Assembly (NCBI GenBank): GCA_025457915.1
Contig: JALOTL010000009.1
Location: 1 to 64,000 of the forward strand
Length of the DNA stretch: 64,000 bases
Source of the DNA: Spirochaetota bacterium
GTDB lineage: Bacteria; Spirochaetota; UBA4802; UBA5550
Direction of reading: 5' to 3'
Part shown: positions 47,583-58,868 of the stretch, piece by piece
Position numbering within the stretch: the first letter of the stretch is position 1
How the letters are laid out: the number at the start of each line of letters is the position of its first letter
Translations under genes and position numbers: made by a program
Notes under the pieces: model-generated
Database searches by the model: none
The model's input: only the letters and a program-made list of their open reading frames with translations
What the model was told of the DNA's origin: nothing

Positions 47583-48167
47583 ATGAGTCTAGTTCCTATA
47601 GTTATTGAACAGTCCAGCCGGGGGGAAAGGGCATATGACATATACTCCAGGCTTTTAAAGGACAGGATCGTTTTTCTCGGCGAGGCCATAGATGATTATG
47701 TTTCCAGCCTTGTAATCGCCCAGCTCCTTTTTCTTGAAGCCGAGGACCCGGATAAGGACATATTTCTTTATATAAATTCACCGGGCGGGATCGTAACTTC
47801 CGGTCTTGCCATTTACGACACCATGCAGTACATCAAACCCGATGTCGCTACCATATGCATAGGACAGGCGGCATCCATGGGATCACTGCTTCTTGCGGCC
47901 GGGGCCGCTGGCAAAAGATCGGCTCTGCCGAATTCAAGAATAATGATCCATCAGCCTGCCGGGGGATTCCAGGGCCAGGCGTCAGATATAGAGATCCAGG
48001 CAAGGGAAATCGTAAAAATTAAAAAGAAATTGAATGAAATATATTCCTTCCACACTAAGCAGCCTGTTGAAAGGATCGAAAAGGACGTCGACAGGGATTA
48101 TTTCATGTCGGCTGAAGAGGCCATGAAGTACGGCCTCTTAGACAAGGTTATTGAAAGAAAACAATAA
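47583..48167 (+). CDS. clpP: ATP-dependent Clp protease proteolytic subunit
   Basis: The 194-residue serine protease has the catalytic triad Ser98 (AASMGSLL), His123 (MIHQPAGG) and Asp172 (VDRDYFMS). N-terminal [20 protein letters not shown] and FLYINSPGG are also standard. It forms the 14-mer chamber that works with ClpX, encoded 9 bases downstream. The ATG follows AGGGGTG. Confidence 0.97.
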
Positions 48168-48176
48168 GGAGTCGAG

Positions 48177-49433
48177 ATGGCGTCAAAAGGCAAGGAAGAA
48201 AAAGCTAAACTATACTGTTCATTTTGCGGTAAAAGCCAGGACATAGTAAAAAAGCTAGTAGCCGGACCGGATGTATACATTTGCGACGAATGCATAGATC
48301 TCTGCAACGAGATAGTTGCTGACGATGCGGCAAGCGGCCTGGATGAGAATTTTTCAAACCTTCCCAAACCGAAAGACATCAATGAAATCCTGAATGAATA
48401 TGTCATTGGGCAGGATGAAGCCAAGAAAATACTCGCCGTGGCCGTCTACAACCACTACAAGAGAATTTTCAGCAATAAGAATTTAAAGAAGAATGACGTG
48501 GAGATCGACAAGAGCAATATTCTTCTTGTCGGACCTACTGGTTCGGGGAAAACCCTTCTGGCGCAGACCCTGGCGAGAATCCTTCATGTGCCGTTCGCAA
48601 TTGCTGACGCAACAACCCTGACCGAGGCGGGATATGTGGGGGAGGACGTGGAAAACATTCTCCTTCGCTTGATTCAGAACGCCGACGGCGAGGTCAAAAA
48701 AGCGGAGATAGGCATAATATACATCGATGAAATCGACAAGATATCCAGGAAATCGGACAATCCCTCTATCACGAGAGACGTTTCCGGGGAAGGGGTGCAG
48801 CAGGCGCTTTTAAAAATCATAGAGGGAACGATTGCAAACGTGCCGCCGCAGGGCGGAAGAAAACACCCGCACCAGGAATTCATCTCGATAGATACAAGAA
48901 ACATATTGTTTATCGTTGGCGGTGCCTTCGTCGGTCTGGACAATATAATACAGAAACGGCTCGGGAACAAAACAATGGGCTTCGGGGCTGATATCAAGTC
49001 CCAGAAGGAAATAAGCGATGAAAATATTTTAAGAAGCCTTCACCCCGAGGATCTAATAAAATACGGGATGATACCGGAATTCGTCGGCAGGATCCCTGTA
49101 CTTGCAGTGCTTGACGAGCTCAACAAGGAAGCGCTGGTCAGGATACTAATCGAACCGAAAAACGCGTTCATCAAGCAGTATAAAAAGATCTTCTCTTTCG
49201 AGGATGTGGATCTGGAATTCACCGAGGATGCGATAACCGAGATAGCCGATATAGCTATCGGCAGATCGTGCGGGGCGCGGGGTCTGAGGGCCGTTCTGGA
49301 AAGCCTGATGCTGGACCTCATGTATGACGTACCGTCGATGAGCAATATAACCAAGGTTGTCATAACCAAGGCAATGGTGAACGGCGAGCAGGGTCCGAAA
49401 ATCATATATAATGACAAGGAGAAATCGGCCTGA
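48177..49433 (+). CDS. clpX: ATP-dependent Clp protease ATPase subunit ClpX
   Basis: The 418-residue AAA+ unfoldase has the N-terminal zinc-binding domain ([16 protein letters not shown]), Walker [13 protein letters not shown], Walker [11 protein letters not shown] and the ClpX-specific [11 protein letters not shown] region ([14 protein letters not shown]), plus [11 protein letters not shown] and sensor 2 [11 protein letters not shown]. It recognises and threads substrates into ClpP. AAGGAGTCGAG precedes the ATG. Lon starts 8 bases after its stop. Confidence 0.97.
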
Positions 49434-49440
49434 TTTAAAT

Positions 49441-51888
49441 ATGAAAAAGCAGATAGATTACAATAAAAAATATCCTCTTCTGCCCCTCAGAGACGTGGTG
49501 GTTTTTCCCCACATGGTGATACCGCTTTTTGTCGGGAGGGAAAAGTCGGTAAACGCGCTGGACGAAGCCATGAAGACCGAAAGGCTGATCGTTCTCGCGA
49601 CTCAAACGGATGCCCAGATAACGGTACCGGAAAGGAAGGACCTCTATGACGTCGGTACAGTCGCGGAGATACTGCAGCTTCTGAAGCTCCCTGACGGAAC
49701 CATCAAGGTCCTCGTGGAGGGTGTTTCAAGGGGTTATATCTCCGACTTCGGTTCCGACAAGGATTATTACGAGGTCAAGATAAAGGATATCGACAGGACG
49801 GTGGAGACCGGCATCGATATCCAGTCTTTAAAGCAGAACCTTCTGGACACATTCGATAAATACATCAAGCTCAATAAAAAAGTTCCTCGGGAGGCCCTGA
49901 CCTCGTCGGCGGGGATAGAAGATATTTCCCAGCTGGCGGATATAATATCGTCCCATGTCGAAATGAAAATCGAGTACAAGCAGTCGCTTCTTGATATCGG
50001 AAGTCCCGTAGACAGGCTCAGCAGGCTGATCGAGCTTATCAACGGCGAAATCGAGGTCATGTATATTGAAAAGAAGATACAGGGCCAGGTCAGGAAACAT
50101 ATGGAAAAGACCCAGAAAGAATATTACCTGAACGAACAGATGAAGGTAATAAAAAAGGAACTGGGGCAGGGCGAGGCAGAAGTTGACGAGATAGATGAAC
50201 TCAGAAAATCCATAGATACGGCAAGGATGAGCACGGAGGCCAGGACCAAGTCGCTTCAGGAGGTCAAGCGGCTAGAGAAAATGCCGCCCATGTCGGCCGA
50301 GTCGGCCGTGGTCAGGAACTATATAGAATGGCTCAGGGACGTGCCGTGGTATAAAAAGACAAGGGACAACAAGGATATAGAGCTTTCAATGAATATTCTC
50401 AACGAAGACCATTACGGACTTGAAGAGGTCAAGGAGAGAATCGTTGAATATATAGCCGTAAGGCAGCTTTCAAAGAAGCTCAAGGGCCCGATCCTTTGCT
50501 TCGTCGGTCCTCCGGGAGTGGGCAAGACCTCCCTCGGCAGATCCGTTGCCAGGGCCCTTGGCAGAAAATTCGTAAGGATGTCTCTCGGCGGAGTAAGGGA
50601 CGAAGCGGAGATACGCGGCCATAGAAGGACCTACGTGGGCGCTCTTCCCGGAAGAATTATACAGATGATGAAAAAGGCCGCTACGGTCAATCCGGTAATT
50701 CTCCTCGACGAGGTCGACAAGATGTCAATGGATTTCAGGGGGGATCCCTCGTCCGCATTGCTTGAGGTGCTTGACCCCGAGCAGAACAATTCATTCGTCG
50801 ATCATTACATGGAAGTTCCGTATAATCTCAGCGATGTTATGTTCATTACCACTGCCAACGTGCAGCACAAGATCCCGCTGCCCCTGCTTGACAGGATGGA
50901 AATTATCGAGATATCGAGTTATACCGAACCGGAAAAGCTCAATATTGCTGTAAAATTTCTTCTTAACAAACAGATCCTTGAAAACGGACTGCGACGTGAA
51001 AATATTGAATTTCCTGATGATATGATACTTTATACGATAAGGCACTATACCAGGGAGGCCGGGGTAAGGAACCTTGAGCGCGTTATTGCGAAGGTTTGCA
51101 GGAAGGTGGCCAGGGAAGTAGTAAGAAACGGCAATGACTTCAAAAAGACCGTAACTGAAGAAGCTCTTCACCGGTTCCTTGGCCCCATAAAATTCAAATA
51201 CGGCGTCAAGGAACAGAAAAATGAAATCGGGCTGGCCAATGGATTGGCCTGGACCGAGGTCGGCGGCGATATACTTAACATCGAGGCATCGCTTATAAAG
51301 GGCAAGGGCAATCTGACCCTCACCGGCAAGCTCGGAGAGGTGATGCAGGAATCGGCCCACGCGGCGCATACCTATGTGCGCGCGAACCAGCAGTTTTTTA
51401 ATATTGAGGATGATATCCTGCGGAAAAGCGACATTCATCTTCATGTTCCTGAGGGAGCGATTCCAAAGGACGGACCTTCGGCGGGAATAACCATGGCCGT
51501 TGTAATCGCATCCCTGCTCAGCAATATCCCGGTCAGGTGCGACGTGGCGTTGACCGGTGAAATAACCCTGAGGGGCAAGGTGCTGCCGATAGGCGGACTG
51601 AAAGAAAAAATTCTTGCCGCCCACAGGGCCGATATCCGGCATGTAATAATACCGGAAGAAAATGAGAAAGACCTCGAGAAAATCCCGGAATACGTAAGGC
51701 AGCAGATGGTTTTTCACCCCGTTTCAAAAATGGAAGAGGTAATTTTCCTTGCGCTTCAGGATCCGGACAAGTTCTTCAAGGACCATGAAAAAACCAGGTT
51801 CCTCTATGAAAGATGGAAGGGCCATATGGGCGACTGGAGCATTGAAATAGGCGATCAGGTAAACGATAAAGACGCCATCAAGATGTAG
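49441..51888 (+). CDS. lon: ATP-dependent protease Lon
   Basis: The 815-residue protein starts at the ATG after the clpX stop (a longer frame from 49411 overlaps clpX and lacks the usual N-terminus). It has the LAN substrate-binding domain, coiled coil, AAA+ module with Walker [14 protein letters not shown] (near 355) and Walker [12 protein letters not shown], and the protease domain with catalytic dyad Ser ([11 protein letters not shown], near 680) and Lys ([12 protein letters not shown], near 722). It degrades misfolded and regulatory proteins. Its stop almost meets the convergent methyltransferase stop (4 bases). Confidence 0.97.
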
Positions 51889-55700: not shown

Positions 55701-58700
55701 GTGAAATTCATAGCAGACTTCCATATACACTCCCATTTTTCAGTGGCGACAAGCAGGAACCTTGTGCCCGAGCATCTTGAATACTGGGCAAGGATCAAGG
55801 GCATTAATGTACTCGGTACCGGCGATTGCATACATCCCGGCTGGTACGATGAATTGAAAGAAAAGCTCGAGCCCGAAGGCAACGGCCTTTATTTACTGAA
55901 AAAAGAGTACAGGCTGAAAGAATCCCGTTCGCTCGCCGGGGGCAACTACCCGGAACAGGTCCATTTCATGCTGACCGGAGAGATCAGCAGCATCTATAAA
56001 AAAAACGGCAGGGTGAGAAAGGTCCACAACCTCTGCTTCTTCCCGGATTTTGAATCCGCGCTGAAGATGCAGTCATCGCTGGACAGGATAGGAAATATAA
56101 GATCGGACGGAAGGCCGATCCTTGGCCTTGATTCCAGGATTCTCCTTGAAATGCTCCTGACGACATCACAGAAATCATTTCTTGTCCCAGCCCACATCTG
56201 GACCCCATGGTTTTCTGTACTCGGCTCCAATTCCGGATTCGACAGCATTGAAGAATGCTTCGACGACCTCACAGGTGAAATTTTTGCAGTCGAGACCGGG
56301 CTTTCCAGCGATCCGCCTATGAACCGGGCCTGCGGCATCCTGGACCGCTTCAAGCTGATTTCCAATTCAGATGCGCATTCTCCTGAAAAGCTCGGAAGGG
56401 AGGCCAACGTTTTCGATTGTGAAATGAATTATAACGCCATTTACGGGTCGCTCAAAGGAGACGGAGGTCTGGCGGGAACAATAGAGTTCTATCCCCAGGA
56501 AGGAAAATATCATTACGACGGGCACAGGAAATGCGGCGTCAAATGGGATCCACTCGAAACCGTCAGGCACAACGGCGTCTGCACGACGTGCGGCAGGCCC
56601 GTAACGAAGGGCGTGATGTACAGGGTAGCCGAGCTTGCAGACAGGACCGGGACGGGATCATCCAAGAATGCGTTGGGATACAGCTCAATAACGCCCATGC
56701 CCGATCTTATATCCGAGATCCTTGGCCACGGGAGCACTAAGTCGAAATCCGTGCAGAATGAGTATATGAGGGTTATATCCGCCCTCGGATCGGAATTCCA
56801 TATTCAACTTGAAGCTCCAATTGACGAGATCGAGAAAAAGGCGGGATTATTGCTTTCAGAGGGAATAAAAAGGCTGAGGGAAGGGAATGTAATCATCGAA
56901 GAGGGGTATGACGGTGAATTCGGAAGGATAAAGGTTTTTCTTGATTCCGAACTTCGAACCGCATCCGACGGAGATCTTTTCGGGCGCGGGAAATTTTCAG
57001 AAAGGCCGCCCGGTCTAAATGAATCTTCCGTGAAGTTCGATATAAATGAATTTAAAAAAGCCTTGGATATCATGTCCACTGGAATTGAAGGCAAGGGCGG
57101 TGCCAGTATGGATGCCGATAAACCTGCCGGTAAACCCGCAACTGGAAATCCTGAATTGTCAGCAGAACAGCTGAGCGCTGTAGAATACAAGGACGGCAAC
57201 TGCATAGTGATCGCCGGTCCGGGGTCAGGGAAGACGAGGGTGCTCGTGGAGAAGATACTGCACCTGACGGACGATGAAGGAGTCCGTCCCGGAAGTATTC
57301 TGGCTGTTACGTTTTCCAACAAGGCCGCCCAGGAAATCCGTGACAGGCTGAAAAACCGGGGAATGAAGGGTGATCTCGAAGTGGCGACTTTTCATTCCTT
57401 CGGGCTGGGTTTTATTAAAAAAAATATTTCAAGGACAGGCAGAAAAGAAAATTTTATCATACTGGACGATGAAGACAGGACCGCTTTGATCGGGAAGCTG
57501 TTCAGGTCAAAGGAGAAACCTGAAAGCATTGCCAGGAGGCTGGACCTTTTCAAACAGGGCAGTGATGCGCACGGCGATCCGGCGATGCTTAAAACATACG
57601 AAGAAGCGCTTGTCGAAATGAATGCATTCGATTTCGGGGATCTTGTCAGCATACCGGTGAAATTGCTCGGGAATGATCCCGATCTTTTTGAGGGCATGGC
57701 GGGAAAATTCAGCTGGGTCCTGATTGACGAATTTCAGGACATCAACGCGGTTCAGTTTGAATTCATACGTCTTCTCTCGGGGAACGGCCGGACAAAATTG
57801 TTCGCTATCGGAGACCGGGACCAGGCCATATACGGTTTCAGGGGATCGGACCCGAAATATATCGATCTTTTTATCGAAAATTTCTCTCCCCTCGTCGTTA
57901 CGCTCGGGAAGAGCTACAGGTGCCCGGATCCGCTTCTGAAAATCGCGGGGCAGGTCCTGAATAAAGATAAGACAATTTCCGGGCTTCCTTCAGACATAAA
58001 GGCGGAAATCATCGGGATGAGCTCGGACAGAAGCGAGGCGGACTGGATTGCAGCAAAGATAGAATCAATGATGGGAGGCGTCAGGAGTTTTTCCATGGAC
58101 AGCGGCATGACAGACGGTCATGGCGGATCACTGGATTTTTCTGATTTTTGCGTTCTTTGCCGCGGCTCCTTCATGTTCGACCCGATTGTCGAAGCCTTTA
58201 ATAATCACGGTATATCCTATCAGGTAATAGGCGGAAGGAGCTTTCTTTCCGGGGAGCCTTACAGGACGGCTGTCAGGATCATGACAGAGTCCTTAAGGAT
58301 GCAGGCAGACTGTTTGCCGCCTGAAACAACAGTCACCGGAGCAAGGAGAATGATGGATGATGGTGCTTCTGTCATTGAAATAATGAGACACTTGCTGAAG
58401 AATGAAATAACCACGGTTGATTACGACAGGCTCGAAAATACAGGAAAAAAATTCGGAAATGATTATCCCGGTTTCATAAGGTCCTGTTCCACAAGACAGG
58501 GAATTGATGATTATGAGGAAAGGTCAAGCGCCGTATCGCTTATGACCATGCACGCATCAAAGGGGCTCGAGTTCACGAATGTCTTTATACCGGGGTGCGA
58601 AGACGGTATCATTCCATTCGAGCTGTACGCTAAAAAAACCGGCGAGGAATTAATTGAAGAGGAAAGGCTTTTTTATGTCGGGATTACCAGGGCAAAGATG

Positions 58701-58868
58701 AACCTTTTCCTGACATATGCATCCAGAAGGACAATTAGAAACAGGCGTCTCACGCTCGAGATCAGCAGGTTTATCGGGAGAATGTGCGGGGATCTTATTC
58801 AATCCGGCATGCGGACTGAAAAAAAGAAACGGAAGACGGATGAAGATCAGCTCGACCTGTTCAAATAG
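55701..58868 (+). CDS. EndoQ-like PHP endonuclease fused to UvrD-family helicase
   Basis: One frame of 1055 residues starting at GTG. Residues 1-430 match the EndoQ/TIGR00375 PHP family, which nicks DNA 5' of deaminated bases: DFHIHSHFSVATSRN (metal-binding His), LGTGDCIHPGW, HNLCFFPDF, PAHIWTPWFS, and SNSDAHSPEKLGREA, then the Cys pairs KCGVKWDP / CTTCGRPVTKG of the family zinc site (270-300). After a linker (about 430-480), residues 480-1055 are a superfamily 1A UvrD helicase with all motifs: Q-motif-like SAEQLSAVEY, Walker A IAGPGSGKTRV, VLIDEFQDINAVQ, GDRDQAIYGFRGSD, SYRCP, TMHASKGLEFTNVFIPG and FYVGITRAK. The fusion predicts one polypeptide that nicks at uracil or hypoxanthine and unwinds. 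Domain calls strong, coupling inferred. Confidence 0.92.
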   Translation: MKFIADFHIHSHFSVATSRNLVPEHLEYWARIKGINVLGTGDCIHPGWYDELKEKLEPEGNGLYLLKKEYRLKESRSLAGGNYPEQVHFMLTGEISSIYKKNGRVRKVHNLCFFPDFESALKMQSSLDRIGNIRSDGRPILGLDSRILLEMLLTTSQKSFLVPAHIWTPWFSVLGSNSGFDSIEECFDDLTGEIFAVETGLSSDPPMNRACGILDRFKLISNSDAHSPEKLGREANVFDCEMNYNAIYGSLKGDGGLAGTIEFYPQEGKYHYDGHRKCGVKWDPLETVRHNGVCTTCGRPVTKGVMYRVAELADRTGTGSSKNALGYSSITPMPDLISEILGHGSTKSKSVQNEYMRVISALGSEFHIQLEAPIDEIEKKAGLLLSEGIKRLREGNVIIEEGYDGEFGRIKVFLDSELRTASDGDLFGRGKFSERPPGLNESSVKFDINEFKKALDIMSTGIEGKGGASMDADKPAGKPATGNPELSAEQLSAVEYKDGNCIVIAGPGSGKTRVLVEKILHLTDDEGVRPGSILAVTFSNKAAQEIRDRLKNRGMKGDLEVATFHSFGLGFIKKNISRTGRKENFIILDDEDRTALIGKLFRSKEKPESIARRLDLFKQGSDAHGDPAMLKTYEEALVEMNAFDFGDLVSIPVKLLGNDPDLFEGMAGKFSWVLIDEFQDINAVQFEFIRLLSGNGRTKLFAIGDRDQAIYGFRGSDPKYIDLFIENFSPLVVTLGKSYRCPDPLLKIAGQVLNKDKTISGLPSDIKAEIIGMSSDRSEADWIAAKIESMMGGVRSFSMDSGMTDGHGGSLDFSDFCVLCRGSFMFDPIVEAFNNHGISYQVIGGRSFLSGEPYRTAVRIMTESLRMQADCLPPETTVTGARRMMDDGASVIEIMRHLLKNEITTVDYDRLENTGKKFGNDYPGFIRSCSTRQGIDDYEERSSAVSLMTMHASKGLEFTNVFIPGCEDGIIPFELYAKKTGEELIEEERLFYVGITRAKMNLFLTYASRRTIRNRRLTLEISRFIGRMCGDLIQSGMRTEKKKRKTDEDQLDLFK

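Follow-up and report, generated by a model that had tools for sequence, protein, structure and literature searches.

An EndoQ-UvrD fusion protein with a sliding-clamp motif, a candidate single-chain enzyme for the repair of deaminated bases in bacteria

The window analysed here, a stretch of 64,000 nucleotides from a Spirochaetota genome, contains a gene in which an EndoQ-type nuclease and a UvrD-type helicase are joined in one frame (Table 1). Its translation holds no internal stop, and the N-terminus of the protein, MKFIADFHIHSH, aligns with the start of its family. The gene stands alone; its neighbours, named from their translations, are a divergent argC-like gene and a chemotaxis-receptor-like gene. 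Upstream, at 47583-51888 of the window, lies an ordinary clpP-clpX-lon-like protease cluster. The fusion is the only EndoQ copy in the assembly, which is 96% complete. The AlphaFold model of the protein has a mean pLDDT of 80.7, falling below 50 at linker residues 424-429, 440-442 and 461-483; the segments 461-483 and 1034-1055, in the linker and the tail, are modelled with low confidence and are probably disordered.

Table 1. Position and extent of the fusion gene and its parts in the window
Feature	Coordinates	Strand	Description
EndoQ-UvrD fusion gene	55701..58868	+	single open frame, GTG start, TAG stop, 1055 aa
EndoQ domain: PHP catalytic and zinc-binding parts	55701..56936	+	residues 1-412
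Zinc site H275-C278-C294-C297	56523..56591	+	aligned with Pfu C249, C252, C268, C271
Variable linker	56937..57155	+	residues 413-485; confidence partly low in AlphaFold model
Degenerate linker clamp motif SDGDLF	56964..56981	+	residues 422-427; Gln lost
SF1A UvrD/Rep-type helicase	57156..58790	+	residues 486-1030; identified from Pfam/NCBIfam/PDB, Foldseek and motifs
C-terminal beta-clamp-binding motif QLDLF	58848..58862	+	residues 1050-1054; matches published consensus

What can be discerned about the nuclease half? Residues 5-412 match PfuEndoQ (5zb8) with an E value of 9.2e-44 in phmmer, and Foldseek superimposes this half on 5zb8 and on the dU-DNA complex 7k30 with TMt values of 0.87-0.88. 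Against TIGR00375, residues 5-410 score 135 bits (E 3.9e-39) and do not reach the curated equivalog cut-off of 326.6 bits; other members of the fusion clade score 164-185 bits. Judged by these scores, the half is homologous to TIGR00375 but is no TIGR00375 equivalog. An earlier note on this DNA had recognized the EndoQ pattern here, which the profile and structure matches bear out, with H8 and H10 forming the HxH motif and TGDCIHPGW occupying residues 40-48. In an alignment of 79 complete fused proteins, 19 near and five far stand-alone EndoQs and PfuEndoQ, residues H8, H10, D42, E94, H109, H165, D224 and H226 are conserved, the exceptions being an Asn for D224 in one relative and otherwise single gaps or unread positions; apart from these, a loss of metal ligands, which the note had named as a possible objection, is seen in none of the 79. 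The note had further described zinc-binding Cys pairs. Four ligand-type residues are kept at the place of the zinc site, but they do not form two Cys pairs: the first is H275, found in 78 of the 79 fused proteins, and the other three are cysteines throughout (79/79). As the same His replaces Pfu C249 in nearly all aligned stand-alone bacterial sequences as well, the substitution of H-C-C-C for the C4 site of Pfu looks like a conservative ligand swap.

Residues E76, H84, H139, G169 and S171 of PfuEndoQ correspond to E94, H109, H165, G200 and S202 here, and the base-pocket trio H165, G200 and S202 is invariant in all 79 fused proteins. In PfuEndoQ, the pocket residues H139, G169 and S171 exclude T and A and admit U and Hx (PMC8307549). 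Since every metal ligand and every base-pocket residue is conserved, we infer lesion-specific nicking by the EndoQ half, and regard this as well supported. The archaeal enzymes (PfuEndoQ PF1551 and TkoEndoQ TK0887; PDB 5zb8, 7k30-7k33) share with the fusion the whole fold of PHP and zinc domains and all catalytic and base-pocket residues, but are only ~30% identical to the fusion half, comprise about 400-425 aa without a helicase and have an all-Cys zinc site, in which one Cys is His in the fusion. Bacterial stand-alone EndoQs (of Bacillus pumilus, and homologues in Nitrospirota and Desulfobacterota) represent the same nuclease as the fusion half, again without the helicase.

The helicase half carries motifs I (505), Ia (537), II (676), III (704), IV (738), V (951) and VI (992) and matches the Pfam families UvrD-helicase (7.9e-62) and UvrD_C (1.4e-31). 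Sequence matches in the PDB include Rep (1uaa) and PcrA (1pjr), and the closest fold is that of the DNA-bound Deinococcus UvrD (4c30, Foldseek TMt 0.75). With 242-311 bits it does not reach the UvrD, PcrA and Rep equivalog cut-offs of 911-1144 bits. The description of this half as a complete SF1A helicase with intact motifs needs amending in one respect: motifs I, Ia and II-VI are indeed all present in the alignment, but the 2B region, at residues about 853-937, is shortened by roughly 50-75 residues. This reduction follows from the short interval between motifs III and V, which measures 247 residues in the window protein and 238-254 in its lineage, as opposed to 299-322 in seven of the eight UvrD/PcrA/Rep proteins measured (the eighth, a 446-aa frame, has 132). 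Rep is activated by the removal of 2B, and by this analogy the reduced 2B may favour unwinding by a monomer. While the fusion thus has all motifs and the fold (TMt up to 0.75) in common with UvrD, PcrA and Rep, it differs in forming a separate branch of the helicase tree and, in the window's lineage, in the shortened 2B.

Neither the clamp-binding motifs nor the wide spread of the family nor the proposals already published appear in the earlier note. The protein ends in DEDQLDLFK, in the low-confidence tail of the model, and the pentapeptide QLDLF agrees with the consensus for DnaN binding, QL[S/D]LF or QxxLF (PMC12309361). The pattern Q..[LMI][FL] is found within the last 25 residues of 73 of the 79 fused proteins, compared with 26 of 1135 other ORFs from the same loci, and a slightly looser C-terminal pattern in 76 of 79, compared with 5.7 expected from shuffling the same tails, although neither count is independent, as the fused proteins are related. 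The tail before the motif varies across the fused proteins while the motif itself is kept, with the consensus Q-L-[S/D]-L-F. None of the 14 UvrD/PcrA/Rep tails examined has a clamp-type ending, the sampled UvrD and PcrA proteins differing from the fusion in this lack of a QxxLF tail. DnaN is present in the window genome, and the QLDLF tag should hook the fusion protein to the replication clamp.

A second motif resides in the linker. Outside the window's lineage, 43 of 63 fused proteins have the pattern Q..[LMIF][FL] there, in 41 of the 43 at one and the same distance behind the EndoQ domain, against 2.1 expected; in the window's lineage the Gln is retained in none of 15 proteins, and the motif has decayed to xxxLF. 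The site is where related stand-alone EndoQs end (for example in KGQSMLF), 11 of which end in such a motif, whereas the fused form carries its C-terminal motif at the helicase end. Earlier work had already pointed out a C-terminal clamp motif in bacterial EndoQ, and in Archaea PCNA binds and stimulates EndoQ by way of a C-terminal PIP box (PMC4858679); the clamp partner of the fusion would instead be DnaN. The combination of a clamp motif retained in the linker with a second one at the end of the helicase was not found in the literature searched.

The profile searches, structure prediction and domain-order survey that the earlier note had proposed all agree with its reading: EndoQ and UvrD profiles and folds are both matched, and the 79 complete fused proteins, from many phyla, have the same domain order. 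In the window's phylum, 45 of 296 genomes have EndoQ matches, predominantly long fused frames, which are spread over many families, and otherwise mostly stand-alone frames of 400-430 aa with ~32% identity; most sampled members of the window's own family have the fusion. Two close relatives carry lesions in the EndoQ half (L042:4831-8061 and L069:5056-8264, both on the plus strand), one an in-frame stop and one a frameshift, which reflect either sequencing error or decay. A scan of 84,980 species yielded at least 591 matching stretches, of which the best 80 fall into Bacteroidota, Bacillota, Thermodesulfobacteriota, Myxococcota, Chloroflexota, Planctomycetota, Nitrospirota, Actinomycetota, Elusimicrobiota, Omnitrophota, Fibrobacterota and others, some of these assignments resting on single metagenome bins that could be mislabelled. 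EndoQ occurs in 101 of 148 genomes of the Geobacter phylum, about 41 with a frame of fused length, and in 97 of 200 of the Blautia phylum, about 23 of them fused and most others distant stand-alone forms, the fused counts being approximate readings from frame tables. The fusion is old and widespread in bacteria. As many related EndoQs, more than half of the Desulfobacterota sample among them, have frames of stand-alone length, the helicase is dispensable for some EndoQs.

In the helicase tree, the fused halves are separated from 14 UvrD/PcrA/Rep proteins, taken from the same and other genomes, by a branch with a support of 99. They are joined by the helicases of five relatives (L101, L110, L115, L132 and L157) in which endoQ and uvrD-type genes are split but adjacent, overlapping by 4 bases in one instance (L101:5992-8954). 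These five helicases nest within the fused group, and each of them has a clamp motif at its C-terminus. That the two halves function together is indicated in three ways, by their fusion, by gene adjacency where they are split and by the clamp tags that both arrangements share; the helicase tree fits one recruitment of one helicase type. In L157 the split pair could derive from a fusion that was damaged, as L149, a close relative, has the fused form. A single origin of the fusion, with all stand-alone forms as losses, is not favoured by the EndoQ tree, which needs nine changes, at least six of them forced; as its outgroup is long-branched, the stand-alone forms may be ancestral or secondary. 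One stand-alone EndoQ, L062:6409-7740 on the minus strand, has neither helicase nor clamp motif while the other sampled members of its family are fused, and looks like a secondary loss.

Which other enzymes could act on deaminated bases in this organism? A search of the window genome for Ung, EndoV and Nfo found none of the three. The two UDG-superfamily matches in the genome reach 17-38 bits, where the family 4 cut-off lies at 125, and both are degenerate UDG4-like proteins without the usual family 4 motif A. One, of 226 aa (L169:1249-1929, plus strand, G000:C12), lies just before a priA-like gene, as does its 219-aa counterpart in a relative (L166:1282-1941, plus strand). Conserved in at least one relative and retaining the HPITLxKNP motif after the loss of motif A, this protein is perhaps a non-catalytic UDG descendant. 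The other (L172:1441-2097, plus strand, G000:C43) is a weaker UDG-fold-like protein of 218 aa with 17 bits to family 4. Given the absence of Ung, EndoV and Nfo and the degeneracy of the UDG4-like proteins, repair of deaminated bases in the window genome may be initiated mainly by the fusion. The fusion is not a simple UDG replacement, since close relatives often also carry UDG4, G102 for instance having a proper one beside the fusion. A phylum-wide replacement of UDG is likewise unsupported, as 289 of the 296 genomes have UDG-superfamily matches. Within the same order, among genomes of at least 90% completeness, canonical UDG (E below 1e-14) is about equally frequent with and without the fusion, and weak matches only are found in 5 of 15 genomes with it and 3 of 15 without.

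On balance, we think it fairly probable that the fusion is a single-chain, clamp-tethered enzyme of alternative excision repair that combines nicking with unwinding. The C-terminal QLDLF would dock on the DnaN ring, and the EndoQ domain would flip out a deaminated base, uracil or hypoxanthine and probably also xanthine or an abasic site. As EndoQ nicks immediately 5' of the lesion and leaves 3'-OH and 5'-P ends (PMC4357722), cleavage would place a 3'-OH upstream and the lesion at the 5' end of the downstream strand. The tethered UvrD-type motor would then load at the nick, most simply on the intact strand; moving 3' to 5', it would head towards the lesion and strip off the damaged strand beginning at that strand's 5' end. 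A clamp-bound polymerase would meanwhile extend the 3'-OH. A flap or single-strand nuclease and a ligase would complete the repair. Seen directly are the two domains with their intact active sites, the conserved clamp motifs, the long-standing covalent or genetic linkage of the halves and a lack of conserved gene partners around them. What we infer is catalysis and lesion range, the polarity of the helicase and its loading at the nick, the binding of DnaN and the coupling, with the direction and loading strand of the helicase borrowed from the SF1A family. This mechanism is supported by the resemblance in fold to EndoQ and UvrD structures solved with DNA. Coupling of nick and unwinding, which the earlier note had suggested, is plausible and is strengthened by the fusion, the adjacent split gene pairs and the clamp motifs; fusion alone, however, does not prove sequential action on one lesion. 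Counting against the mechanism as a whole are the score below the TIGR00375 cut-off, the loss of the linker Gln in the window's lineage, the UDG4 of close relatives and the many related EndoQs of stand-alone length.

The proposed order of events resembles strand removal in MutL-UvrD mismatch repair, where a nick is likewise followed by UvrD-type unwinding of the faulty strand with involvement of the clamp; there, however, a mismatch is the signal, and nicking, helicase and clamp contact are divided among different proteins, whereas the fusion combines these functions in one chain. Removal of the strand by a helicase has also been proposed to follow dual incision by EndoQ and EndoV (PMC4357722). 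That model invokes EndoV, whereas the window genome has no EndoV match and the helicase is built into the EndoQ chain.

Could the helicase instead act before the nuclease? A clamp-tethered helicase might open the DNA or clear it of proteins so that EndoQ finds its lesions, which it would reach in single-stranded DNA near forks, leaving the downstream removal to polymerase I and flap nucleases. EndoQ does cleave U and Hx in single-stranded DNA (PMC11354406), some stand-alone EndoQs carry a clamp motif but have no helicase next door, and the window genome encodes further UvrD-like proteins, including a PcrA-type helicase, so that these paralogs would keep the PcrA-type functions and the fusion copy would be free to specialise. 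Yet EndoQ works on duplex DNA and flips bases unaided (PMC8307549), so prior unwinding is not needed, and we consider this order of events unlikely. Rather less likely still is a broader lesion nuclease-helicase whose main target would be AP sites, oxidised pyrimidines or uracil misincorporated at forks, and not spontaneous deamination. In its favour, PfuEndoQ also cleaves AP sites and some oxidised pyrimidines (PMC8307549), Nfo has no match in the window genome and the clamp motif points to replication-coupled action; against it, the pocket residues that bar T and A and admit U and Hx are invariant, and AP-site repair may be covered by Xth.

An antiviral nuclease-helicase directed against phages whose DNA contains uracil or is altered in other ways, akin to Gabija, is very improbable. 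Such a role has been suggested for Bacillus EndoQ, as reported in PMC8307549, and the helicase half matches GajB models in PADLOC, but these matches are confined to the generic UvrD part. Gabija (GajA-GajB) also partners a nuclease with a UvrD-like helicase, but uses two genes, serves defence and has an unrelated nuclease of the OLD-family ATPase/TOPRIM type, while the nuclease here is EndoQ by sequence and fold. A mobile or defence element was rejected on further grounds: 72,556 plasmids and 50,697 phage records contain no match, there are no conserved neighbours, and the fusion occurs in most sampled family members and not in patchy islands. The notion of an artefact or pseudogene uniting two genes, for which only a few relatives with an internal stop or frameshift (L042, L069) could be cited, has practically no probability left, being refuted by dozens of intact fusions with the same domain order and conserved active sites; the frameshift artefact against which the earlier note had cautioned is likewise ruled out, as the same fusion is found as an uninterrupted frame in many families and phyla.

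Earlier publications have noted clamp motifs in bacterial EndoQs (PMC4858679) and proposed that a helicase acts after incision (PMC4357722), while the literature searched, under several names, yielded no published study of the EndoQ-UvrD fusion itself. Strand removal after incision in the EndoQ pathway has so far been proposed, in one model with a helicase (PMC4357722), and not shown. A natural EndoQ-UvrD fusion with a clamp tag in many phyla is direct evolutionary evidence for such a helicase step, and incision, unwinding and clamp dependence can now be studied together in a single protein. More tentatively, the family might represent a widespread, uncharacterised pathway in which a single polypeptide, attached to the clamp at one site or two, detects deaminated bases, nicks the DNA and processively displaces the damaged strand, serving in some genomes, including that of the window, as the sole dedicated initiator in place of glycosylase-based excision repair and EndoV. 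The fusion also suggests that repairing deaminated DNA without a glycosylase is not a mainly archaeal trait but common among bacteria.
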